This document shows positions 26,796-42,035 of a DNA stretch of 64,000 nucleotides, piece after piece. Under the pieces are notes generated by a model. It saw only the letters and a list, made by a program, of their open reading frames with translations. It did no database searches and was not told the origin of the DNA. Position numbers and translations under genes: made by a program. How positions within the stretch are numbered: position 1 is the stretch's first letter; each line of letters starts with the position of its first letter. Source of the DNA: Sulfurimonas sp. (GTDB lineage: Bacteria > Campylobacterota > Campylobacteria > Campylobacterales > Sulfurimonadaceae); NCBI RefSeq assembly GCF_041583195.1, contig NZ_JBFHGL010000011.1, positions 1 through 64,000 of the forward strand. The letters run 5' to 3'.

Positions 26796-27914
26796 TTAAA
26801 ACAGGTGTTCAAACAGTTGCTTAACACCTTGTTTTATTAACTCATCTTTTATCTGATCACCAATACCGTTTGACTGTGTATTTGGAGCTTGATAAATAAC
26901 TTTTGCTTTATTTTGCTCTTCTAACATCCTTTTTTGTTCTGAGAGTAAAAATTCCTGATACTCTCTTTTTTCTTTATCTTTTAATATCTCTGTTGTTACA
27001 TCGATCATTGTAGCTATAATTTTTTCGCTCAAACCCATTTTAATCAACAGATCAATCTCATCTAAAGTAAACTCTTTATACGGAACTTTTACCCTTTTTA
27101 TTAAAGAAACAACTAAAAACTCACTCTTACCATCATTAATCAGCTTTCTAATATCTCCAACTTTCATACCTGCAGGACCTGTAAAAAGGAGTCTTATACT
27201 GTCATCAAAAATATAGTAGACGCTATCCGGGTTTTCATCTGTATATTTTTTCAACCCTTCAAAGTCGTTGTTTTTTAAAAAAGTATCTACCTCTTTTTTC
27301 AATTTATCTTCATGCTCTTTTTCTTTTTTTAGAGCCAGTTTTTCTTCTTGTTTTTTTAGATATAACTCTCTGTCTTTTTTTGCATGCTGTTGTAGATAAC
27401 TTATAATTTTGGAATCGCTTGCAGACTCTATCGGAGTCTTTCCATCATTGTCCAATAAACTGAGATCAGCCCCGTGTTCTGACAAGTATTTTACTATTTT
27501 AAAATAGCCTTTGTTTGCAGCCATATGTAAAGGTGTAGCACCCCAATGATCATTTGTTGTTTTGGCATTGTTTATATTAACATCGGCTCCCTGCTCCACC
27601 AAATACTTAACAACATCTAAATGTCCTTGTATCGATGCTGCATGCAATGGTGCCCAATAGCTATCTGGATAAGCCGCATCAATTTTTGCACCATGCTCTA
27701 CCAAATATTTAACAGCTTCTAGTTGTCCATTATGTGCCGCCCAAGATATTGGCGTATATTCTAAACTTAGCGTGTTTATATCTACACCGTTATTAAGTTC
27801 TTTCTCTATAGTTTTAATATCGCCAATGCTAGCTGCAGTTGCAATTTTAGCTACACATCCAGAAAAGAAAAAAACCACAAATACTGTAATAATTCCTAGG
27901 AGGTATTTTTTCAT
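26796..27914 (-). CDS. Ankyrin-repeat lipoprotein with GLSD-type C-terminal module
   Basis: A 372-residue predicted lipoprotein: the signal peptide ends in VFFFSGC, with the lipidated Cys20. Residues about 28-178 hold roughly five ankyrin repeats (TPISWAAHNGQLEAVKYLVEHGAKID; APLHAASIQGHLDVVKYLVEQGADVN). A charged linker (180-215) leads to a C-terminal module (about 216-372) shared with the proteins at 38017 and 39328: TGPAGMKVGDIRKL, SLIKRVKVPYKEF, MGLSEKIIATMIDVTTE. The role is unknown. The start at MKKYLLG was preferred over 20 extra upstream residues because it gives a proper signal peptide. It begins one base after the stop of the small upstream gene, so the two are probably translationally coupled. 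Confidence 0.85.
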   Translation of the reverse strand: MKKYLLGIITVFVVFFFSGCVAKIATAASIGDIKTIEKELNNGVDINTLSLEYTPISWAAHNGQLEAVKYLVEHGAKIDAAYPDSYWAPLHAASIQGHLDVVKYLVEQGADVNINNAKTTNDHWGATPLHMAANKGYFKIVKYLSEHGADLSLLDNDGKTPIESASDSKIISYLQQHAKKDRELYLKKQEEKLALKKEKEHEDKLKKEVDTFLKNNDFEGLKKYTDENPDSVYYIFDDSIRLLFTGPAGMKVGDIRKLINDGKSEFLVVSLIKRVKVPYKEFTLDEIDLLIKMGLSEKIIATMIDVTTEILKDKEKREYQEFLLSEQKRMLEEQNKAKVIYQAPNTQSNGIGDQIKDELIKQGVKQLFEHLF

Positions 27915-27915
27915 T

Positions 27916-28170
27916 TTATTCGTATGTTTTATCCATAAGTTTAATGCCGCTTGTCCATGAAGTGTTTGAATCATCTTTTTTTACTGACTCTTCAATCTTT
28001 TTAACTTCCTTAACTGGCTGTTTTTTTTCAAACTCTTTTTTCTCGATTTGCTCTACATCATGAAAAAGCGTTGAGGCTATAAAAAAAAGTATCATAATAA
28101 CTACAACACTTGCATAAGCCAATAAATAATTTTTAATATGTCCACTTTCAAATGGATTTTCGATCTTCAA
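27916..28170 (-). CDS. Small single-pass membrane protein, unknown function
   Basis: An 84-residue protein with one membrane helix (about 14-36, YLLAYASVVVIMILFFIAS) followed by a lysine/glutamate-rich stretch (EKKEFEKKQPVKEVKKIEE) and a short polar tail. The charge pattern recalls the N-terminal anchor and spacer of TonB, but there is no C-terminal TonB domain, so that name is not justified. Its stop is one base from the ATG of the ankyrin lipoprotein gene, which points to a shared operon and perhaps a shared membrane complex. Confidence 0.65.
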   Translation of the reverse strand: MKIENPFESGHIKNYLLAYASVVVIMILFFIASTLFHDVEQIEKKEFEKKQPVKEVKKIEESVKKDDSNTSWTSGIKLMDKTYE

Positions 28171-28295: not shown

Positions 28296-29714
28296 ATGAA
28301 TAATAAATTGAAAGTCACTGCTATATTATCAGCTAAAGTCCGTTTTTTACTATATTTATCATCGTTATCTACCCTTGTTTTTTCAGAAAACTACTGTGTA
28401 AATATATGTCCTTTTATCGACGGTCTCTCTTTTGGTTCACTAACTTTTAACCTTTTTATCATATTTATTTTTCATGTAATTGTCAGGGAACTTCTATTTT
28501 ACTTCTTTAAAGATGTCCCACCTACTTTGACAACTCCGCGTTATGCATATTATCTATCTATAATTTCTTGGCTGATCGCAGGTGTCGCTGCGTTTGCATT
28601 GCACAGTTATCTATATCCATACTTTCCAATTGGCAGTCATTTAAAACTACTTAGCAGTTACTGGATTTTAGGTGCAGGAATTTTGGCTCAGTTAGAGTAT
28701 ATAATATATGAGCAAAAATATAAGCAGATAACAAATGAGTTATATTTGATCTCATTTAATGAAAATATATCTCGCAGAATATTTGAGAGTTTCATTATAC
28801 TCAGTGCAGCTCCATCTATAACGATAATGCTTATATTGGCACGCTACAGAAATGAGACCCTTCAAGGCTCACATATATTAGAAGAGATAACGTACGTAGT
28901 TACTCTTTTTGTATCTGTAGCGGTAATTTGTGCTTATTACTTTGGAAAAATGCTAAAAAAAGACACTCAAAAAGTTTTAAATAATATTCATGAGATTAAA
29001 CACTCTAACTATAATATTAAGCATAATATAGCAAGAGCCGATGAAATTGGAGAGATATCGCAGGCGATAGAATCCATGTCCCATGAAATAGGAACCTTGA
29101 ATGAGGAGATCATCTCAACACAAACAGAAATTGTAAATACAATGGGAGAGATAGCAGAAACAAGGAGTAAAGAAACCGGAAACCATGTTAAACGTGTAGC
29201 TCTTTTTTCTGAACTTTTAGCTCTTAAATACGGATTTAGTGAAGATGAAGCAAAACTTTTAAAACAAGCATCTCCTATGCACGATATAGGAAAAATCGGT
29301 ATCCCTGACATCATATTAAACAAGCCAGGTCGCCATACTGAAGAAGAGTTTGAACTAATGAAAACACATGCTGCTCTTGGTTATGAAATACTTAAAAATT
29401 CAAATAGAGAAATATTAAAAGCCGCCGCCATAGTTGCTCATGAGCATCATGAAAAGTATGATGGAAGTGGATATCCAAGAGGTTTAAAAGGTCAACAAAT
29501 ACATATATATGGACGAATTACTGCTGTAGCCGACGTATTTGATGCACTTGGTTCAGATAGAGTTTACAAAAAAGCATGGGAAGATGAAAAGATTTTTAAT
29601 TTGTTTAGAGAAGAAAAAGGCAAACACTTTGATCCGGATTTAGTAGATCTGTTTTTTGAAAATATAGATTATATCTTAGAGATTAGAGACAACCTAAAAG
29701 ATAAAGCTACTTAA
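28296..29714 (+). CDS. Membrane HD-GYP protein, probable c-di-GMP phosphodiesterase
   Basis: A 472-residue protein. About six membrane helices (near 15-30, 48-70, 85-104, 118-137, 165-183 and 198-218) are followed by a HAMP-like linker (about 218-275) and an HD-GYP domain (about 280-465). The metal dyad is in SPMHDIGK (His329-Asp330) and the signature in HHEKYDGSGYPRG (GYP 392-394), so catalysis is plausible. There is no obvious periplasmic ligand domain, so sensing is probably in the membrane. An AAAAGG site precedes the ATG. It overlaps the convergent cyclase gene by four bases. Confidence 0.9.
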   Translation: MNNKLKVTAILSAKVRFLLYLSSLSTLVFSENYCVNICPFIDGLSFGSLTFNLFIIFIFHVIVRELLFYFFKDVPPTLTTPRYAYYLSIISWLIAGVAAFALHSYLYPYFPIGSHLKLLSSYWILGAGILAQLEYIIYEQKYKQITNELYLISFNENISRRIFESFIILSAAPSITIMLILARYRNETLQGSHILEEITYVVTLFVSVAVICAYYFGKMLKKDTQKVLNNIHEIKHSNYNIKHNIARADEIGEISQAIESMSHEIGTLNEEIISTQTEIVNTMGEIAETRSKETGNHVKRVALFSELLALKYGFSEDEAKLLKQASPMHDIGKIGIPDIILNKPGRHTEEEFELMKTHAALGYEILKNSNREILKAAAIVAHEHHEKYDGSGYPRGLKGQQIHIYGRITAVADVFDALGSDRVYKKAWEDEKIFNLFREEKGKHFDPDLVDLFFENIDYILEIRDNLKDKAT

Positions 29715-31120
29715 CCTACACTAACTCTATTTTTACCACTGTTTTTAGATTTGTATAACAATCTGTCTACTCTTCTGAATATAGTGTCTTCAGTATCACT
29801 TTCATTACTTTCAGATACTCCAAGACTCACAGTAATAGTCCGATCTGTAACCTCGTCTAACTTTTCTGAAATATTTTTACGCAGCTTTTCTGCAACAGAG
29901 ACAGCACTCTCTAAACCTGTTTCAGTTAATAAAACTACAAACTCTTCACCACCGATTCTAAAAACATAATCATTTTCTCTTAGTTGTGATTTAACAATAT
30001 TACTTAGCTTAACTAAGACTTCATCTCCAACCTTGTGACCATATGTATCGTTTACCTGTTTAAAATCATCTATATCAAACATAATCATTGAAAACTTTGT
30101 CTTATAACGCTTTTTGAGTGACAATAATTCTTCTACTCTTTTGTTATAAGATTTTCTATTGTAAAGTTTTGTCAGTTCATCTACATATGTTTGATCTTTA
30201 ATTTTCTTTTGTGCTAAATGTAGTTCGGTTATATCTCTTGCTATACCTAAAACACCTGTATCTTTATTGTTGTATTTAAATGGAATTTTTTGCACTAAAA
30301 GATATTTTCTCTCACCATCTGGATATGTAATCCATTCATAGTTAGAAGAGACTTCATTTTTCTCAAGCATTTGTACATCCATCTCTCTAAACTGTGAAGC
30401 CATCTCTTCTCTAAAAAGCTCGAAATCATTATGACCAATCATCTTATCTTTCGTTTGTCCTACAAATTTTAAAAAGGCATCATTACAACCTAAATATTTA
30501 AACTCTTTATCTTTAAAAAATATAAGATCATCTGTTGAGTTAATAATTGAGCTGAGAGTACTTTCAGACTTTTCAACCTGATGAATATAATTTTCCTCTT
30601 TTGTTACATCGATAACTATACCGACTGAAACTAATGGTTGGCCATTTGAGTCAAAATCTGTTTTACATTTTTCAATCACCCATTTAAGCTCTCCATTTGA
30701 GAGTAAGACCCTATGTTTGATCTCATAATCTTTCTTTGTCTTTAACGAATCTAAATAAGCATTTTTCACACATTCTCTGTCATCTTCATAAACTATATTT
30801 ACAAAACTTTCGAAGGAAAGTTTAAACATGCCTTTATCTATTTTAAACATGTTATATATTTCATCTGACCAAAATAGTGTACCTTTTTTTAAGTCGTACT
30901 TCCAAAAACCTATTTCAGATATTTGTTGCACTTTTAAAAAAGTATTTTTTTCTTCTAATGCATTTTGTCTTAATTGAAAAAGAATTCCTAAAATAATTGA
31001 AAATATGATGGCAAAGGTGATTTTTTCAAAACTTGATAATATATACTCTGAAAATAAAAAAACAGATACAATGATTACAGAAGCGAACACTACTAAAATT
31101 GTCGGTATATATCTACGCAT
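29711..31120 (-). CDS. Diguanylate cyclase with two PAS domains
   Basis: A 469-residue membrane-anchored cyclase. Two short N-terminal helices (about 6-27 and 30-48) have almost no periplasmic loop. PAS domains lie at about 55-180 (EIGFWKYDLKKGTLFWSDEIYNMF, PAS_3 type) and 185-305 (STDDLIFFKDKEFKYLGCNDAF). The GGDEF domain follows, with GGEEF near 390-394 and an inhibitory REND five residues upstream. Its C-terminal end strongly resembles that of the cyclase at 33042, suggesting paralogy. AAGG precedes the ATG. Confidence 0.9.
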   Translation of the reverse strand: MRRYIPTILVVFASVIIVSVFLFSEYILSSFEKITFAIIFSIILGILFQLRQNALEEKNTFLKVQQISEIGFWKYDLKKGTLFWSDEIYNMFKIDKGMFKLSFESFVNIVYEDDRECVKNAYLDSLKTKKDYEIKHRVLLSNGELKWVIEKCKTDFDSNGQPLVSVGIVIDVTKEENYIHQVEKSESTLSSIINSTDDLIFFKDKEFKYLGCNDAFLKFVGQTKDKMIGHNDFELFREEMASQFREMDVQMLEKNEVSSNYEWITYPDGERKYLLVQKIPFKYNNKDTGVLGIARDITELHLAQKKIKDQTYVDELTKLYNRKSYNKRVEELLSLKKRYKTKFSMIMFDIDDFKQVNDTYGHKVGDEVLVKLSNIVKSQLRENDYVFRIGGEEFVVLLTETGLESAVSVAEKLRKNISEKLDEVTDRTITVSLGVSESNESDTEDTIFRRVDRLLYKSKNSGKNRVSVG

Positions 31121-31177
31121 ACCTTATTATACAACTTAACTTCTTAATACAATTTTTTATTATGCTAAAATTAGTTT

Positions 31178-33040
31178 ATGAATATATTTAAAAACAAAAC
31201 ATATATTAGTTTTATTTTTTATTTTGTCTTTTATGGAATTGTGATTTCATTATTTACTTCATTTGTTAATTACAAAATTCAGTATTCAGATATTGAAAAA
31301 GGCATCAAACAAAATGCTGAGTATACTTCAATGCAAAAAATTAATCGTATTGAAAGCTACATTGAAGGGATCAAGCAAAACCTTTATTCAATTACAAATA
31401 ACCCGACTTTTATTAGATATTTGGAAAATTCAAACCCAGAAAACAAAGAACAAACACAAAATATATTTATAAATACTGCTATGTCAAATATAAACTTCTT
31501 TCAAGTACGTTTTATCAACAAAGATGGATTAGAAATTATAAGAGTCGACAAAGATAGAGCTACGAACTATTCTTTTGTAGTAAGTGAAAAAAATCTTCAA
31601 GATAAATCAAACAGATATTATTTTCAAGAAAGTATTAAAAGTTCTCAAGGAATGTACTGGAGATCTAAAATTGATCTAAATGTTGAGCGAGGTGTTATTG
31701 AAAAACCTATACGCCCGACAATCAGAGTATCTACACCTGTTTATCATAATCAGATTTTACATGGAATTGTTATCATAAATGTAGATCTGACAAAGTTATT
31801 TAATGCAATTCAACAAAGTTCTGATTTTATTATATATATAGCAGATAACGAAGGCAATTTTTTAATACATCCGAATGAAAAAAATTCATGGAGTAAGTAC
31901 TTAAAAAATGGATATAAACTTAGTGACGAATTTCCTAACAAATACAAAATAATGTTATCTACTAGTAGCTATAAATCTATGCTTGTAAACTCATTCAGTC
32001 TAGAAAGAGCAATTCAAAACAATGAAGATTTATCACTTATACTAAAAACTGAAAATGACTATGTTACAAACCTAAAAAACAACAATTATCTTCTGACATT
32101 ATATTTAACAGTTTTAATTTTAGTAGTGTCTATACCTTTAGGAGTATTTATTTCATTAACTCCGGCAAGACTACAAGAAAAATTGAACATACTGTTAAAA
32201 GAAAATGCTGAACAGTTGGATATCATCGATAAACATGTGATTACTTCGACTACAGATCTAAATGGTAATATAATTGATTTAAGTACTGCGATGTGTAAAA
32301 TAAGCGGTTATTCTAAAGAAGAATTAATTGGAAAAAATATGTCTGTTTTAAAAAGCGGAAATTTACCAAAAGAACTTTATGAAACATTATGGAGAACTAT
32401 AAAAAACGGTTTAGTATGGCAAGGTGAAATTGAAAATAAAACTAAAAATGGTGATTATTACTGGTTAGAAATAACTATACTTCCGCGCTTAAATTCAAAT
32501 AATGTTATAGAAAACTATATGGCTATATGTACAGATATTACAGATAAAAAAATTATTGAATATATTTCAGAGCATGATAAACTAACTAAACTATATAACA
32601 GAACAAAACTTGATAAAGTTCTTGAACATGAATACTTAAGATCGCAAAGATATAAAAACACTTTTTCTATAATCATAATCGATCTAGACCACTTTAAATC
32701 TGTAAATGATACATATGGGCACCTTGTCGGTGATAGTGTATTAGTAGAACTTGCAGATATACTACAATCAAGTATCAGAAGTACTGATACGCTTGGAAGA
32801 TGGGGTGGTGAAGAATTCTTAATAATATGTCCGCAAACAGATCTTTCAGGAGCAAAAGAGTTGGCTGAAGAGATAAGAAGAAAAGTTGATAATCATACAT
32901 TTAAAACAATTGGAAATAAAACGATAAGTATTGGAGTTTCTGAATTAAATAATGATGATAATATAGAGAGTCTTCTTAAAAGAAGTGATGATTGTTTATA
33001 TGAGGCTAAAGAATCTGGTAGGAACTGTGTTAAAAGTTAG
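31178..33040 (+). CDS. Diguanylate cyclase with double-Cache-type sensor and PAS
   Basis: A 620-residue membrane cyclase. Helices at about 10-30 and 307-328 enclose a periplasmic sensor with FFQVRFINKDGLEIIRVDK, LQDKSNRYYFQES, SKIDLNVERG and IRPTIRVSTPV. These motifs also occur in the HD-GYP protein at 8734. The PAS (about 347-462) is close to that of the 14208 cyclase, but its FAD-motif region reads LKSGNLPKELY instead of RHPDMPKELY. The GGDEF domain has intact GGEEF with inhibitory RSTD upstream. So it should be an active, feedback-inhibited enzyme. No clear ribosome site precedes the ATG. Confidence 0.9.
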   Translation: MNIFKNKTYISFIFYFVFYGIVISLFTSFVNYKIQYSDIEKGIKQNAEYTSMQKINRIESYIEGIKQNLYSITNNPTFIRYLENSNPENKEQTQNIFINTAMSNINFFQVRFINKDGLEIIRVDKDRATNYSFVVSEKNLQDKSNRYYFQESIKSSQGMYWRSKIDLNVERGVIEKPIRPTIRVSTPVYHNQILHGIVIINVDLTKLFNAIQQSSDFIIYIADNEGNFLIHPNEKNSWSKYLKNGYKLSDEFPNKYKIMLSTSSYKSMLVNSFSLERAIQNNEDLSLILKTENDYVTNLKNNNYLLTLYLTVLILVVSIPLGVFISLTPARLQEKLNILLKENAEQLDIIDKHVITSTTDLNGNIIDLSTAMCKISGYSKEELIGKNMSVLKSGNLPKELYETLWRTIKNGLVWQGEIENKTKNGDYYWLEITILPRLNSNNVIENYMAICTDITDKKIIEYISEHDKLTKLYNRTKLDKVLEHEYLRSQRYKNTFSIIIIDLDHFKSVNDTYGHLVGDSVLVELADILQSSIRSTDTLGRWGGEEFLIICPQTDLSGAKELAEEIRRKVDNHTFKTIGNKTISIGVSELNNDDNIESLLKRSDDCLYEAKESGRNCVKS

Positions 33041-33041
33041 T

Positions 33042-34172
33042 TCAAGCAACTAAATCAGATGTAACTATATTTTTTCCACTCTCTTTAGATTTATAAAGTA
33101 ATTTATCAACTCTTTTAAATATAGAATCTTCTGTATCATGCTCTTTAACTTCTGTTATACCGATACTAATTGTAATTTGACGATCTTTTATAGAGTTTAG
33201 ATTTTTTTCCACGTTAGCTCTTATTTTTTCCGACACTTCATTACCTTCATATATATTAATATTTGGACATATTATTACAAACTCTTCACCGCCTATCCTG
33301 TAGATGGTATCTATTTTATTTCTTATAATCGAATTTACCAATTTAGATATATCCATCAAAACAATATCACCCACTCTGTGACCATAGGTGTCATTAATTT
33401 TTTTAAAATTATCGATATCAAACATAATCAATGCAAAAGGTGTTTTATACCTATTAAAAATTTGTAACTGTTTAACTATATCTCTGTTATATCCTTTTCT
33501 GTTTTGTATTTCTGTTAATGGATCTATATATGAGAGAAATGCCTTTTCTTCAATCTCTTTATTGAATCTGTTAATTAAAAAATAACCAAATGCCATTATT
33601 AATACGATTGATATGTAAACTATGTATTTGATAGTTGTATATGTCGTATACATATTTTTAAACTTTAAATTAATATGCTCTTCCAACTCTTCTAATGTTT
33701 TAGAAAGCAAAGCATATTTTTTGTCATAGATTTCATCTAGTTCTCTGATATTTATTTTATTTTTCATTCTATTATATTGAATAGATTTTATCTCTTCAAG
33801 TATTTTTTTTGACTTATTAAGCATACTATTCATATACTTATCATTAAGAGAGTTATTAAGCTTAAAACCGTTAATTATTCCGCCGCTTATGAGTAAATCT
33901 AAATTATCAATACTTCTTTTTATAAATAGATCAATTTTTGAGAACTCTTTAATATCCCCGTTTAAAAATTCTTCTAACCACAAATGAGATTGAGTAGAAA
34001 AATATTTTATATTCACAATTGTATATGTAAGATGTTTATTGTGTTTGGAAAATCTATCTGTGAAGTAGTTTAGTGATAAAAAGGATAGGACTATTATAAT
34101 ATTTAACGTTATTAATATTTTATATATTCTTTTTTTACTTTTAAAATATTGATTAAATAAAGTGTTTTTCAT
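33042..34172 (-). CDS. Diguanylate cyclase with periplasmic helical sensor
   Basis: A 376-residue membrane cyclase. Helices at about 18-37 and 183-203 bracket a helical periplasmic domain with FSTQSHLWLEEFLNGD, a pattern seen in PilJ/four-helix-bundle sensors. The GGDEF domain (about 215-370) has intact GGEEF near 294-298. The usual inhibitory RxxD is replaced by RNKID, one residue out of register, so feedback inhibition may be lost. Its stop is one base from that of the convergent 31178 cyclase. The C-terminal sequence closely resembles the cyclase at 29711. Confidence 0.88.
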   Translation of the reverse strand: MKNTLFNQYFKSKKRIYKILITLNIIIVLSFLSLNYFTDRFSKHNKHLTYTIVNIKYFSTQSHLWLEEFLNGDIKEFSKIDLFIKRSIDNLDLLISGGIINGFKLNNSLNDKYMNSMLNKSKKILEEIKSIQYNRMKNKINIRELDEIYDKKYALLSKTLEELEEHINLKFKNMYTTYTTIKYIVYISIVLIMAFGYFLINRFNKEIEEKAFLSYIDPLTEIQNRKGYNRDIVKQLQIFNRYKTPFALIMFDIDNFKKINDTYGHRVGDIVLMDISKLVNSIIRNKIDTIYRIGGEEFVIICPNINIYEGNEVSEKIRANVEKNLNSIKDRQITISIGITEVKEHDTEDSIFKRVDKLLYKSKESGKNIVTSDLVA

Positions 34173-36726: not shown

Positions 36727-36767
36727 AACTGTTGCAAAATAAGTTAAATAATATTGGGAAATACTTT

Positions 36768-38015
36768 TTGGAACTCTATAACTCATATAACGTAATATCA
36801 GAAAATAAAAATAAAATAATAAAAGAATGGATCAACTCAGAAACCCTTAACCATATATTAGAACATATAAAATACTCTCCTGAACTATATGAAAAAGAGG
36901 TAGCTTCACAGGTTTTAAACTATCTGCTAAGCATTATAAAAAACGAGGCAGAGATCGGTGACTGCCCTGCTATGAGAAAAGTTGTTGAAACTTTTTTAGA
37001 TTCCGGATTGTGTGTTGAAGATGTATTTTTAAACTGTACTATCTTTAAAAACAATGTTATTGAAGTACTTTACATAAATAAAATTGAGATAGAAGAGATT
37101 CGTAAAGTAACTAATATTTTAGATAAGAATCTGCATAGAATACTAGGTATATACACAAAACAAAAACGTGACAGAGATCAGAAATCTAATTTTCATACAG
37201 ACCTCATTGAAGAACACGTAGCCTTAAGTACTACAAATACGGATGGCATCATAACATATGTAACGGATGCATTTTGTAAACTATCTGGTTATACAGAGAG
37301 TGAACTAGTAGGCAATACGCACAGTTTACTAAGTCATCCTGATATGCCTAATGATTTTTTTAAGTCTATGTGGAAAAAAATAAAGAAAAATCAAGTATGG
37401 AAAGGTAAAGTCAAAAATAGAAAAAAAGACGGCGGAGAGTTTATAGCAAGAACAGAGATAATACCCTTTTTAGATAAAGACGGTAGTGTTATTGAATATG
37501 TAGCTATAAGACATGATATTACAGATAAAGAGCTATCAAATATTGATCCGCTAACTGGTATGTACAATAGGAGATATTACAAAGCTGTAATTGATGATAT
37601 ATTTGAAACACATCAAAAACTATCTATCATGGTAATAGATATCGATCACTTCAAAAGTATAAACGATAATCACGGTCATAGCTTTGGAGACTTGGTATTA
37701 AAAGAGTTTTCAAAAGTTTTATCTAGAAAAATACGTAATAAAGACCTATGTATAAGATGGGGTGGAGAAGAGTTTGTTGCCTTACTTCCTGGTACAGAAC
37801 TTGAAAAAGCAATAGAAATTGCAGAGAGAATAAGAACAACTATCGAGAGCCTTGAAATTCTAGATAAAAACTCAGGAACATCTGTAGATATAAAATGCTC
37901 CATTGGAGTAACAACTAGATATGAAAATGATACATATTCAAGCATGTTTGACAGAGCTGACGGTAATTTATATACCGCCAAAAACAATGGTAGAAATATG
38001 GTGATATCTAAATAG
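36768..38015 (+). CDS. Diguanylate cyclase with helical N-terminal module and Aer-like PAS
   Basis: A soluble c-di-GMP synthase of 415 residues. Residues 1-130 form a helical module with EIGDCPAM (62-69), matching the N-terminus of the hybrid kinase at 16746. A PAS (about 180-290) has HPDMPNDFFKSMW and VWKGKVKNRKKDGGEF, related to FAD-binding Aer PAS domains. The GGDEF domain has intact GGEEF and inhibitory RNKD five residues upstream. I favour the TTG at 36768 because GGGA lies eight bases before it. A TTG at 36732 would add 12 residues but lacks a ribosome site. The stop is one base from the convergent ankyrin lipoprotein gene. Confidence 0.88.
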   Translation: MELYNSYNVISENKNKIIKEWINSETLNHILEHIKYSPELYEKEVASQVLNYLLSIIKNEAEIGDCPAMRKVVETFLDSGLCVEDVFLNCTIFKNNVIEVLYINKIEIEEIRKVTNILDKNLHRILGIYTKQKRDRDQKSNFHTDLIEEHVALSTTNTDGIITYVTDAFCKLSGYTESELVGNTHSLLSHPDMPNDFFKSMWKKIKKNQVWKGKVKNRKKDGGEFIARTEIIPFLDKDGSVIEYVAIRHDITDKELSNIDPLTGMYNRRYYKAVIDDIFETHQKLSIMVIDIDHFKSINDNHGHSFGDLVLKEFSKVLSRKIRNKDLCIRWGGEEFVALLPGTELEKAIEIAERIRTTIESLEILDKNSGTSVDIKCSIGVTTRYENDTYSSMFDRADGNLYTAKNNGRNMVISK

Positions 38016-38016
38016 T

Positions 38017-39258
38017 TTAGAATAACCTTCTTAACAACATATCAACACCCTTGTCAACTGCTTTATCCACAATAGCATCGCCAACGCCTCTCTGTTGTGT
38101 AGCAGGAGTGGCCGAACTTTTTTGATATACAACTTTTGTCTTATTGTTCTCTTTTGCTATACGCTGCTGCTCAGCCAATAAATTCTGCTGTTCTTTTTTG
38201 CGTTGCTGCTCTTTTAAAAGCTCCGTTGTAACATCCATCATTGCAGATATTATACTATCAGATAAACCCATTTTCTGCAGTTTTTCTACCTCATCCATAG
38301 AAAACTCTTTATATGGAGTTTTTACTCTTTTTATAAATGATATGATGATTTTTTCACTTTTACCTTTTTTAATCATATCACTAACATCTACAACTTTAAG
38401 ATTTTTAGGTCCAGTTAGTTTTAGTTTTAATGTTTCATCTTTGATATATTGAACAGCTATAGGGTTTTTATAAACGAACTCTATTAGCTCTTTTTTATCT
38501 TTCTTAGATTCAAGCTCTGCAACTTTTTTTTCTAAAGTTTCCTTTTGTTGTGCTGTTTGAGTATTTTGATTAATATCTGAAGATTGTGCTACACTAAATT
38601 GCATATTTGGATCTTCTCTATATTGCAAGACAAATGAACGAGTTTGTTTCAACTTAGAAATCTTTTCCATATAAATATTATAGAACTGTTGGTTTGATTT
38701 ATATTTCTCAGCAAGTTGTTCATGAATCTTTATATTAGAATCAATAGAAGCTACTAAATCATTTCCATATCCGTCCTTATCAGACATCTTAGCCCCTCTG
38801 CTCAGAAGAAGCTTGATAGTATCTATGTTTCCGGTACGTATTGCATAATGTATAACTTCACCTTTATAGTTGTCTGTCTCATAAATATTTGCACCGCTGT
38901 TTATTAAAAGCTCAGCTACTTTTGTAGCTCCTGAACTAGACGCCTGCATAAGTGGAGTAATTCCATATTTACTTTTTTTATCTACCAATGCACCGCTGCT
39001 AATTAGATACCTTGCAATTGACAGATAATTATCATTTGTTGAAGCATAATGAAGTGCAGTATTTCCTAAACTTGACTCAACTTCATTTACCCTACCAGCC
39101 TGAACATACTTTTTTGCATTATTCATATCTACTGCGGCTAAAACAGGTGTTATTTCACCAGAACTTCTAACTGCACTATATCTAGGTTGTGCAACACAAC
39201 CACTAAGTAATACTAAAGCAATAAGCATAGACGAAAAATCAACTAACCTTTTTTTCAT
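38017..39258 (-). CDS. Ankyrin-repeat lipoprotein with GLSD-type C-terminal module
   Basis: A 413-residue predicted lipoprotein with lipobox LLSGC (Cys21). Residues about 35-170 hold four or so ankyrin repeats (NTALHYASTNDNYLSIARYLISSGALVD; TPLMQASSSGATKVAELLINSGANI; EVIHYAIRTGNIDTIKLLLSRGAKM). A helical, glutamine- and lysine-rich linker follows. The C-terminal module (about 255-413) is shared with the proteins at 26796 and 39328, including LTGPKNLKVVDVSDM, SFIKRVKTPYKEF and MGLSDSIISAMMDVTTELLK, and ends in DKAVDKGVDMLLRRLF. It is tandem with the 39328 paralogue, 69 bases downstream of it. The function is unknown. Confidence 0.85.
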   Translation of the reverse strand: MKKRLVDFSSMLIALVLLSGCVAQPRYSAVRSSGEITPVLAAVDMNNAKKYVQAGRVNEVESSLGNTALHYASTNDNYLSIARYLISSGALVDKKSKYGITPLMQASSSGATKVAELLINSGANIYETDNYKGEVIHYAIRTGNIDTIKLLLSRGAKMSDKDGYGNDLVASIDSNIKIHEQLAEKYKSNQQFYNIYMEKISKLKQTRSFVLQYREDPNMQFSVAQSSDINQNTQTAQQKETLEKKVAELESKKDKKELIEFVYKNPIAVQYIKDETLKLKLTGPKNLKVVDVSDMIKKGKSEKIIISFIKRVKTPYKEFSMDEVEKLQKMGLSDSIISAMMDVTTELLKEQQRKKEQQNLLAEQQRIAKENNKTKVVYQKSSATPATQQRGVGDAIVDKAVDKGVDMLLRRLF

Positions 39259-39327: not shown

Positions 39328-41421
39328 TTAGAATAATTTTCTTAACAACATCTCAACACCCTTGTCAACCGCTTTATCTACTGCTTTATCTATAATAACA
39401 TCCCCAACTGTTTTTTGCTGCAGACTAGGACCTTGTTGATATATAACTTTTGTTTTACTGTTTTCTTTTGCTATACGCTGCTGTTCAGATAATAAAAACT
39501 GTTGCTCTTTTTTACGTTGTTCATCTTTTAATAACTCAGTTGTAACATCGATCATTGAGGCAATAATATTATCGCTTAAACCCATTTCAATAAGTGTATC
39601 GATTTCATCTAATGTAAACTCTTTATATGGTGTTTTTACCCTTTTGATCAATGAAATAACTATTACTTCACTTTTGCCTTGTTTTAAAAGTTTACGAATG
39701 TCTCCAACTTTCATACCGCGTGGACCTGTAAACATTAAACGTAATGAATCATCAGATATGTAATACGCTGCACTAGGATTTTTATCTGTATATGTTTTAA
39801 GACCTTGAAAATCCTTATTGTTTATAAATTCATTAACAATAATGCGTTGTTGCTTCTTTTTATCCTCTTCTACCTCTCTCTTAGCTAGAGATGGATCTTT
39901 AAAATATTTTAACAGTTTATATTGATTTGATTGAGTGGCCACTATTTGAGCTGTTCTGCCATAACTGTCTTTAAGCATTAAGTTTGTATCCATGCCTATT
40001 AAGTATTTTACAATTGCCTCTTGATCTTTTATCTCTTCTTTCTCTCTATATAAAGCCAAATGTAAAGGTGTATAATTTATTTTGCCTTTATATACTGTTT
40101 GCGCATTTAAATCAGCTCCATTATTAGCTAAATACTTAACAACATCAATATTGTTATATCTTGCTGCTAAATGTAAAGGTTCCCATCCATCCGGTTGTGC
40201 TGCATTAATATCTGCATTGTTTTCTACTAAAGATTTAACTATATTTAAAGAACTGTTTCGAGCTGTAAAATGCAATATTGTTTTATTATCAGATGTTTTA
40301 ATGTTAGGATTCGCGCCATGTTCAAGAAGAAACTTAATTATGGCTTCTTGATCTTTTAGCTGTTCTTTTTCTCTATATATAGTAAGTATTAGTGGAGTAT
40401 TATGTGCTTTGCCTTTATGCAGGGTTTGTGCATTCAGATCTACTCCATTTTGTACTAAATATTTTACAACATCTAAGCTGTTATATCTTGCTGCTAAATG
40501 TAAAGGATTCCAATTATCTACAGTTTTAGAATTAATATCAGCCTTATGCTTTATAAAAAGTTTTACAATATCCAAAGAGGTATTTTGAGCTGCATCCAAA
40601 AATGCTGTCCAGTCACTTTTTCCTTTTATATTAGCATTAGCACCATTTTTAAGCAAACAATCTATAACTCTTATCTTGTCATTAAGGCGTTCTTTTTCTC
40701 TATATAATGCCAAATATAAAGGAGTATGGTTTGGTATACCTTTATCAAGGATCTGTACATCTAAATCTACTCCTTGTTTAACTAAATATTCAACTACATC
40801 TGCGCTGTTATACCTAGCTGCTAAATGTAAAGCAGTCCATCGATCAGATGTTGTATCGTTTATATTAGCCTTATTGTTTATCAAAAATTTTACTATCTCT
40901 AAAGGTTTTTCTCTAGAGGCAATCAAAAGAGGTGTCCAATTATTTTTTGCCGCTATATTTACATCTGCACCTTTTTCCAATAGAAATTTTATAACAGATA
41001 TTTGCTCTTTTAAACTTTCGTTCTCTCTATATATTGACAAGTATATAGGAGTAACTTTCTCAGAGCTCTCAGCGTTTAAATCAGCTCCATTTTTAAGAAG
41101 ATATTTTACGACATCAAAACTATTGTATCTAACTGCATAATGTAATGGTGTCCAGAGTGATTTTGATTTTGCATTTATACTTGCACCTTTTTGAACCAAG
41201 TACTCCACCGTAGCTAGATCAGCTGATTTAGCTGCGTACATTAAAGCAGTAATACCTTTTTCATCTACTTCATCAACTTTAGAACCTTTATCAATTTCCT
41301 GTTTCATCATCTTAAAGTTGTTGTTTTTTGCAGCAGAAACCACAGGTGAAGATGCGACACATCCGGTAAATATAAGCATACTAAACATCAAGACAGTTAC
41401 ATAGATTATTCTCTTTTTCAT
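39328..41421 (-). CDS. Large ankyrin-repeat lipoprotein with four super-repeats
   Basis: A 697-residue predicted lipoprotein with lipobox IFTGC (Cys21). Ankyrin repeats fill about 30-510. From residue 90 they are organised into super-repeats of 105-109 residues, starting at Trp90, Trp195, Trp304 and Trp413. Each runs W-x-PLHLAARYNS, DVVKYLVxNG, then an insertion YREKExLKDQ and IVKFLI. The C-terminal module (about 525-697) matches the proteins at 26796 and 38017: TGPRGMKVGDIRKLL, SLIKRVKTPYKEF, MGLSDNIIASMIDVTTELLK. Its role is unknown. A scaffold or ligand-binding protein on the periplasmic face of a membrane is inferred from the repeats and lipobox. Confidence 0.86.
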   Translation of the reverse strand: MKKRIIYVTVLMFSMLIFTGCVASSPVVSAAKNNNFKMMKQEIDKGSKVDEVDEKGITALMYAAKSADLATVEYLVQKGASINAKSKSLWTPLHYAVRYNSFDVVKYLLKNGADLNAESSEKVTPIYLSIYRENESLKEQISVIKFLLEKGADVNIAAKNNWTPLLIASREKPLEIVKFLINNKANINDTTSDRWTALHLAARYNSADVVEYLVKQGVDLDVQILDKGIPNHTPLYLALYREKERLNDKIRVIDCLLKNGANANIKGKSDWTAFLDAAQNTSLDIVKLFIKHKADINSKTVDNWNPLHLAARYNSLDVVKYLVQNGVDLNAQTLHKGKAHNTPLILTIYREKEQLKDQEAIIKFLLEHGANPNIKTSDNKTILHFTARNSSLNIVKSLVENNADINAAQPDGWEPLHLAARYNNIDVVKYLANNGADLNAQTVYKGKINYTPLHLALYREKEEIKDQEAIVKYLIGMDTNLMLKDSYGRTAQIVATQSNQYKLLKYFKDPSLAKREVEEDKKKQQRIIVNEFINNKDFQGLKTYTDKNPSAAYYISDDSLRLMFTGPRGMKVGDIRKLLKQGKSEVIVISLIKRVKTPYKEFTLDEIDTLIEMGLSDNIIASMIDVTTELLKDEQRKKEQQFLLSEQQRIAKENSKTKVIYQQGPSLQQKTVGDVIIDKAVDKAVDKGVEMLLRKLF
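39952..41154 (-). repeat. Four in-frame super-repeats within the ankyrin lipoprotein gene
   Basis: Units of about 315-327 bases encode residues 90-194, 195-303, 304-412 and 413-490 (the last is incomplete). Translations such as PLHLAARYNSLDVVKYLVQ recur in each. Each unit spans about three ankyrin repeats plus a YREKE-containing insertion, so the whole unit, not the single ankyrin repeat, was duplicated. Confidence 0.8.
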
Positions 41422-41528
41422 CTCAAACCTTTTTACTTTCCGGTATATTTAAATATTTTACAAAAAAGATCTTTAAATAATTTACAATTTACTATATAAT
41501 TATTCAATTGACAAAAGTGGGGTTCTAT

Positions 41529-42035
41529 ATGAAATATGCACAAACTTATAACAAACTGGCAGAATTTGGAAGAAAAGTATTAGAGATCGAAGTAGTAGAT
41601 GAGATTCTTCCCTACATATCAAAATATGCTAAAGATACTATCGGTGCCGATAGATGTTCAATATTTGTATATGATCAAGATAAAGAAGAACTTTGGACAA
41701 CACTTGCCGATAATGTTGAAAGAATAACTGTGCCTTCGGATAGAGGTTTGGTAGGTTATGCCTTGGCTACAAAAGAAGGGCTTATTGAAAACAACCCTTA
41801 TAAAAACGAACATTTTTACAAAGATGTCGACACTGAAACAGGATATATAACTAAGAATGTTATCGTAGCTCCTATTTTAGGTTCTCAAGGAGAAGTTGTA
41901 GGTGTGTTTCAACTTATAAACAAAGAGGATGAATTTGATATTGACGATGCAAAATTTATGAAGTTTTTCGCTCACTATATAAGCGGATTTTTAGAACTGG
42001 CAGAACTTAACGAGCATCTGGATAACAAAAAGTAG
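41529..42035 (+). CDS. GAF-domain protein
   Basis: A 168-residue cytosolic protein that is almost entirely one GAF domain (about 20-160). Landmarks are DRCSIFVYDQDKEELWTTLA, GLVGYALATKE, and GVFQLINKEDEFDIDDAKFM, the last resembling the NKxxxxF motif of cyclic-nucleotide-binding GAF domains. No output domain is attached, so it probably signals by protein contact. I placed the start at ATG 41529, with GTGGGG upstream. An in-frame TTG at 41508 would add seven residues. Its 3' end overlaps the convergent pseudouridine synthase gene by 29 bases. Confidence 0.85.
   Translation: MKYAQTYNKLAEFGRKVLEIEVVDEILPYISKYAKDTIGADRCSIFVYDQDKEELWTTLADNVERITVPSDRGLVGYALATKEGLIENNPYKNEHFYKDVDTETGYITKNVIVAPILGSQGEVVGVFQLINKEDEFDIDDAKFMKFFAHYISGFLELAELNEHLDNKK

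Follow-up and report, generated by a model that had tools for sequence, protein, structure and literature searches.

Ankyrin arrays are described in excerpts of the 2006 study 'Expansion of Protein Domain Repeats' (PMC1553488) as growing by several domains at once, in blocks of two, three or four with four the more dominant, and block-duplicated repeats are described there as mainly eukaryotic. A second described system is Tli of Enterobacter cloacae, an immunity protein against a type VI phospholipase, which it neutralises; excerpts of PMC10294624 give it ankyrin repeats and a lipoprotein signal. The gene analysed here, gene A, lies in a stretch of 64,000 nucleotides of Sulfurimonas sp. DNA (contig NZ_JBFHGL010000011.1, positions 1 to 64,000), which we call the window and to which coordinates refer unless another locus is named. 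Gene A resembles the ankyrins of PMC1553488, as excerpted, in its multi-domain block duplication. It differs from the repeats described there in belonging to a predicted bacterial lipoprotein and in the insert that recurs as a marker at each third repeat. Like Tli as excerpted (PMC10294624), it joins a lipoprotein signal to ankyrin repeats, a likeness at the level of description. Unlike Tli, it occurs in a genome without a type VI sheath gene, its two flanking genes encode GGDEF/PAS and GAF proteins, and it carries a tail that is shared with paralogs.

Gene A starts with an ATG that has an AAAAAGG stretch directly upstream. Its product consists, in order, of a signal peptide with a lipobox, ankyrin repeats recognised by Pfam and a C-terminal tail. 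The features of the gene are as follows.

39328..41421, minus strand: gene A, a predicted lipoprotein of 697 residues (open reading frame; Pfam Ank_2 E 4.7e-87)
41359..41421, minus strand: signal peptide and lipobox, residues 1-21 of A (read by eye)
41161..41358, minus strand: ankyrin repeats 1-2, residues 22-87, ahead of the duplicated units (predicted helices at residues 26-44 and 59-77; repeat table)
40840..41154, minus strand: unit 1, residues 90-194, 105 residues, repeats 3-5, insertion YRENE
40513..40839, minus strand: unit 2, residues 195-303, 109 residues, repeats 6-8, insertion YREKE
40186..40512, minus strand: unit 3, residues 304-412, 109 residues, repeats 9-11, insertion YREKE
39859..40185, minus strand: unit 4, residues 413-521, 109 residues, repeats 12-14 with the third degenerate, insertion YREKE
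39331..39849, minus strand: conserved helical tail, residues 525-697 of A (about 173 residues)

The lipobox, read by eye, is IFTG before Cys21, with a valine at the +2 position. Bacterial lipoproteins are recognised by a lipobox and follow a +2 rule, the membrane rule having been derived from E. coli. From these sequence features A is predicted to be lipid-anchored. A signal peptide with a lipobox cysteine can also be seen by eye in 20 of the 21 inspected members of the tail family described below, A included, a reading that leaves aside the start of the L043 gene.

The ankyrin repeats of A score 287.1 bits against Pfam Ank_2 (cut-off 27.3), and with either model, Ank_2 (PF12796) or Ank (PF00023), six stretches exceed the threshold. 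An AlphaFold2 model of the full-length protein, built with a five-row alignment (mean pLDDT 82.0, pTM 0.65), contains 14 ankyrin helix pairs by our count, in repeats of 29 to 39 residues. These repeats belong to the same family as Ank_2 and Ank and have the same helix pairs, but some of them are longer, with 39 residues in repeats 4, 7, 10 and 13 and 37 residues in repeats 6, 9 and 12. The second helix is also longer in predicted pairs 4, 7, 10 and 13, where it spans 13-16 residues rather than about 9.

The initial annotation held that Trp90, Trp195, Trp304 and Trp413 begin four units of 105-109 residues, each about three ankyrin repeats with a YREKE insertion. These residues do open four units, with residue 90 at window position 41154; tryptophan also occurs at residues 162 and 271 and is thus not exclusive to unit starts. 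Each unit comprises three repeats and carries its insertion in the middle one (YRE followed by N or K at residues 131, 240, 349 and 458). The lengths of 105, 109, 109 and 109 residues agree with the range given, but the insertion of unit 1 reads YRENE and not YREKE. Unit 1 is also without four residues, a four-codon gap, relative to the other three units. In unit 4 the third repeat has degenerated, sharing 9-21% identity with its counterparts, and it extends to about residue 515, beyond residue 490, where the initial annotation ended the duplication. Two extra repeats (residues 22-87), missing from the earlier description, stand ahead of unit 1.

The repeating unit is longer than the usual ankyrin of 33 residues, as had been proposed. 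Over residues 1-540 of A, self-identity is 34% at an offset of 109 and 16% at an offset of 33, with a second peak at 218 (27%), and the DNA peaks at 327 nt (52%). Repeats that are three apart have a mean identity of 45% and those six apart 41%; repeats 1, 2, 4 or 5 apart have 29-33%, with neighbours at 29% on average. A period-3 contrast as large as this was reached by 43 of 20000 shuffled repeat orders, which supports the claimed duplication of a three-repeat block. The contrast still beats the shuffles when the four insert-bearing repeats are left out (153 of 20000), and the three-repeat block is therefore the duplicated unit rather than a mere carrier of a recurring insert. Among the other ankyrin frames compared, a small profile finds six or more repeats in only four. 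Two of these peak at an offset of 66, which is twice 33. The other two peak at 333 and 799, which we took as edge effects because the overlap there is only about 100 residues.

Judged from their sequences, the unit duplications are old and not fully saturated. The six unit pairs have protein identities of 35-54%, DNA identities of 57-67% and dS values of 0.82-1.72. At sites where a pair of units agrees in amino acid, 174 of 290 codons are identical, against 134.9 predicted from codon usage in 13 genes of the window (pooled z 4.9, from unit pairs that are not independent; z for single pairs lies between 0.4 and 2.6). Of the synonymous memory, roughly a quarter survives between units. Because this memory is not fully lost, the units should be younger than full saturation would imply. 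A profile of the unit matches one of 135 genomes of the genus, the window's own, at E <= 1e-14, a limit of our own choice that leaves weaker unit-like matches aside. The four units score 171-189 bits against this profile, and a paralog on contig C7 of the same genome scores 70.6 bits (E 2.2e-19).

One pair of stretches stands out from this general divergence.

40479..40506, minus strand: 28 nt in unit 3 with an exact in-phase copy in unit 4 (codon-usage simulations)
40152..40179, minus strand: 28-nt stretch of unit 4 matching unit 3 (codon-usage simulations)

An in-phase identity of 28 nt between units 3 and 4 was reached by none of 2000 simulated codings, and the C7 paralog uses partly different codons for the residues of this patch. 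By these codon comparisons, the patch is likely to stem from a local, possibly recent exchange between the two units. A more extensive process can be imagined in which the duplication is old and the first repeats of the units have been homogenised by gene conversion (concerted evolution). The first repeats of units 2-4 do carry most of the synonymous memory, with 19 of 24 codons matching between units 3 and 4 (11.3 expected), 14 of 18 between units 2 and 4 (8.4) and 14 of 22 between units 2 and 3 (9.6), and the 28-nt run lies within them. However, the second repeats of units 2-4 have little or no such memory (10 of 22 between units 3 and 4, with 11.0 expected), there is one long identical patch only, and the third-repeat counts are small. 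We consider concerted evolution unlikely and prefer an old block duplication in which exchange was at most local.

The tail of A is found in five predicted lipoproteins of the window's genome. B and C lie in the window, and the remaining two are on contig C1 (338 residues; gene at L039 1617-2633) and contig C7 (363 residues).

38017..39258, minus strand: paralog B, 413 residues, ankyrin head and A-type tail, 69 nt downstream of A
26796..27974, minus strand: paralog C, 392 residues, ankyrin head and A-type tail

The tails of the other four paralogs are 56-71% identical to that of A, depending on the alignment. Codons match at 64 of 101 positions between the tails of A and B (49.4 expected), a memory close to that between the units, and at 52 of 100 positions between those of A and C (48.3 expected), which is less memory than between the units. 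Toward the 3' terminus of both B and A (about 38020-38110 and 39331-39420), 15 of 18 codons are identical where 8.5 are expected. This count comes from the last 29 aligned codons of the two genes, is above that of the rest of the tail and suggests, at the level of codons, a local exchange between both genes. A and B lie on the same strand only 69 nt apart and may be co-transcribed. Gene C is convergent to a gene pair that by eye resembles ExbB and ExbD.

Within the genus the tail profile matches 5 of 135 genomes, within the family 17 of 228 and in a sample of the order 8 of 398; a wider profile, applied to a sample of the phylum, matches 10 of 397. The window's own genome is included each time. 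Eight of the 17 family genomes, all from genus g26, match about the first 100 profile positions only; eight of the nine tail-matching genomes of that genus are partial in this way. A scan of contigs of all species with two peptide patterns gave 28 stretches and two relatives; both patterns are strict and found fewer than the order sample did, which makes the scan weak for absence outside Campylobacterota. The named carriers are a Sulfurimonadaceae MAG (L042) and an Arcobacter MAG (L043). Whole protein A matched 49 of 60 relatives, in our view through ankyrins in general, except for the tail of genome G034.

The libraries searched give this tail no name. The best Pfam score for the tail of A is 14.9 bits against a cut-off of 27, and over six tails the best E value is 0.0052, with each family appearing in one tail only. 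NCBIfam has no match for A's tail and a best E of 0.016 over the six. PHROGs, which has no cut-off, gives over 20 tails a best E of 0.00053, in a single tail, and a sequence search of the PDB with the tail returned 0 matches up to E 10. Among the literature matches listed, titles and the openings of abstracts do not describe the gene family.

An AlphaFold2 model of residues 510-697 (mean pLDDT 81.8; of the 188 residues, 122 reach at least 90) is all helical and includes one helix of 41 residues. Its block means are above 90 at model residues 11 to 140 and then 32-68, and the last 38 residues are poorly predicted (32-55). In the full-length model a large part of the tail past residue 620 is weak as well (blocks of 29-72), and the 41-residue helix is shorter and weaker. 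Foldseek found 0 PDB matches to the tail model at E <= 0.001. The chains that VIA-align listed for model residues 1-153 are helical, mixed and all weakly matched (Z at most 4.4, with an rmsd of 20.2 over 103 aligned residues), and families off that list may still match.

The heads that precede the tail are of several kinds. The order and family searches found 28 tails, of which 20 were aligned; the other eight are the third of genome G343 and seven partial ones from g26. By head classes that we assigned mostly by eye, 16 of the 20 follow ankyrins, two follow other domains (the C1 paralog and G517) and two are headless with a short linker only (G343 and G193). The tail tree has 4 of its 17 inner branches starred, and its well supported branches force at least two changes each for the non-ankyrin and the headless classes. 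The headless and ankyrin genes of G343 have tails that are 92% identical in DNA. These two copies (L076 4994-8240) lie 1.5 kb apart with two genes between them. G517 has two family copies near each other with one gene between, and this pair shows 79% DNA identity in the tail and 65% in heads of different kinds by gapped alignment.

In the C1 paralog the non-ankyrin head has no Pfam match, and a DUF2846-like label considered for it was not borne out by Pfam. Weakly related heads occur in 7 of the 228 family genomes besides its own (E 1.5e-6 to 7.8e-4, 34-41% identity), and for six of these the open frame is 464-483 residues long. The family-wide profile search places no tail in six of these seven genomes, and in the seventh (G034) the tail is on another contig. 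We also considered whether lipoproteins upstream of the two headless tails are detached heads. This idea was dropped; their likeness to the two fused non-ankyrin heads is in the signal region only (E 0.018 and 1.2).

No neighbour gene is common to all inspected loci of the tail family, and gene context therefore points to no partner. By eye, G137 and G487 have two neighbours in common, as do G193 and G034. The tail gene of G034 (ankyrin head, L041 1629-2675) and that of G193 (headless, L079 3627-4376) both appear to lie near folE- and fliI-like genes. This may be one locus that holds different heads.

The explanation that we favour, and hold with reasonable though limited confidence, is that A is a periplasmic lipoprotein scaffold with a 14-repeat ankyrin head that grew long ago by blocks and a shared tail for docking or oligomerisation. 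The protein would be exported to the periplasm and tethered to a membrane via its predicted lipid, and its 14-repeat solenoid would serve as a protein-binding scaffold. The array would owe its length to ancient tandem duplications of three repeats together, one of which had a lengthened turn and second helix. Divergence of the units would have followed, with units 3 and 4 exchanging sequence locally at most. The tail, with its short helices, long helix and C-terminal helix, would be the common part of the lipoprotein family; its probable role is to dock to a partner that the members share or to form oligomers, and the variable head may confer binding specificity. The three-repeat period, the divergence of the units, the common tail and the differing heads are observed directly. 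The scaffold half of this explanation rests on family knowledge and on predicted anchoring and fold, and we infer the half that concerns head, tail and partner.

The tail could also be an undescribed periplasmic docking module that brings exchangeable heads to one common machine or complex in Sulfurimonadaceae and Arcobacteraceae, a proposal that we put forward as tentative and rather doubtful. It would accommodate heads that are ankyrin arrays of varied length, two unrelated domains or nothing at all on paralog tails that are kept alike, and it draws on the near identity of the headless and ankyrin tails in G343.

Growth of the array is of a known kind, and the tail is a modest novelty. The array exemplifies block duplication among bacterial ankyrin proteins, and its insert, which marks the unit, makes the age of that unit measurable. 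The tail matters more than the repeat. A small set of predicted lipoproteins with different heads forms a family by sharing it. That family offers a handle on the binding targets of periplasmic ankyrin proteins in Campylobacterota and is worth a second look.

We give little credence to A being an immunity protein against a toxin delivered to the periplasm. This role would parallel Tli, an ankyrin-repeat protein with a lipoprotein signal in the excerpted text (PMC10294624), and family copies do adjoin here and lie near each other in G343 and G517. However, the type VI sheath family PF05591 has 0 matches in the window's genome (99.91% complete), in a search whose control was positive in 1 of 14 control genomes, E. 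coli. The absence of this family makes Tli-like immunity less likely than a scaffold. The two genes that flank the A-B pair are by Pfam a convergent GGDEF/PAS gene (36732-38015) and a divergent GAF gene (41508-42035).

That the duplication is recent, with a unit number that differs between strains, was the conclusion of the initial annotation, and we regard it as very improbable. The exact spacing of three units by 327 nt would fit it, as would the one 28-nt stretch shared by units 3 and 4. Against this stand the low identities between the units (35-54% in protein and 57-67% in DNA), their dS of 0.82-1.72 and the four-codon gap of unit 1, and Tandem Repeats Finder reports no array inside gene A at a score of 40 or more. 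A constant number of units with old, highly divergent sequence between them had been named as the outcome that would speak against recent duplication, and the half of it that concerns age and divergence is what we observe.

A host-directed ankyrin effector is scarcely credible, since the NCBIfam effector models (AnkY, AnkH and others) that match P0001 do so through ankyrins and fall well short of their curated cut-offs (at best 133.8 bits where 600 are required), and the lipoprotein signal favours retention.

Two further ideas were set aside. For a mobile or phage origin, pattern-based scans of viral contigs gave no relative of the tail profile or of protein A, plasmids gave no match for the DNA of A and B, and a protein-level search of plasmids and phages with the tail of A gave none. 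For an anti-phage role, the PADLOC models PDC-M72A (E 5.7e-73 for A) and 'Ankyrin' match on the ankyrins, and in our judgement any ankyrin array would give such matches. A scan for promoters and terminators gave 19 where shuffles give 19.0, and 1 where they give 1.4, and thus no excess. Several genes with GGDEF-like ends lie close together at 29711-34172 and 36732-38015, with a Pfam check on the gene at 36732 alone.
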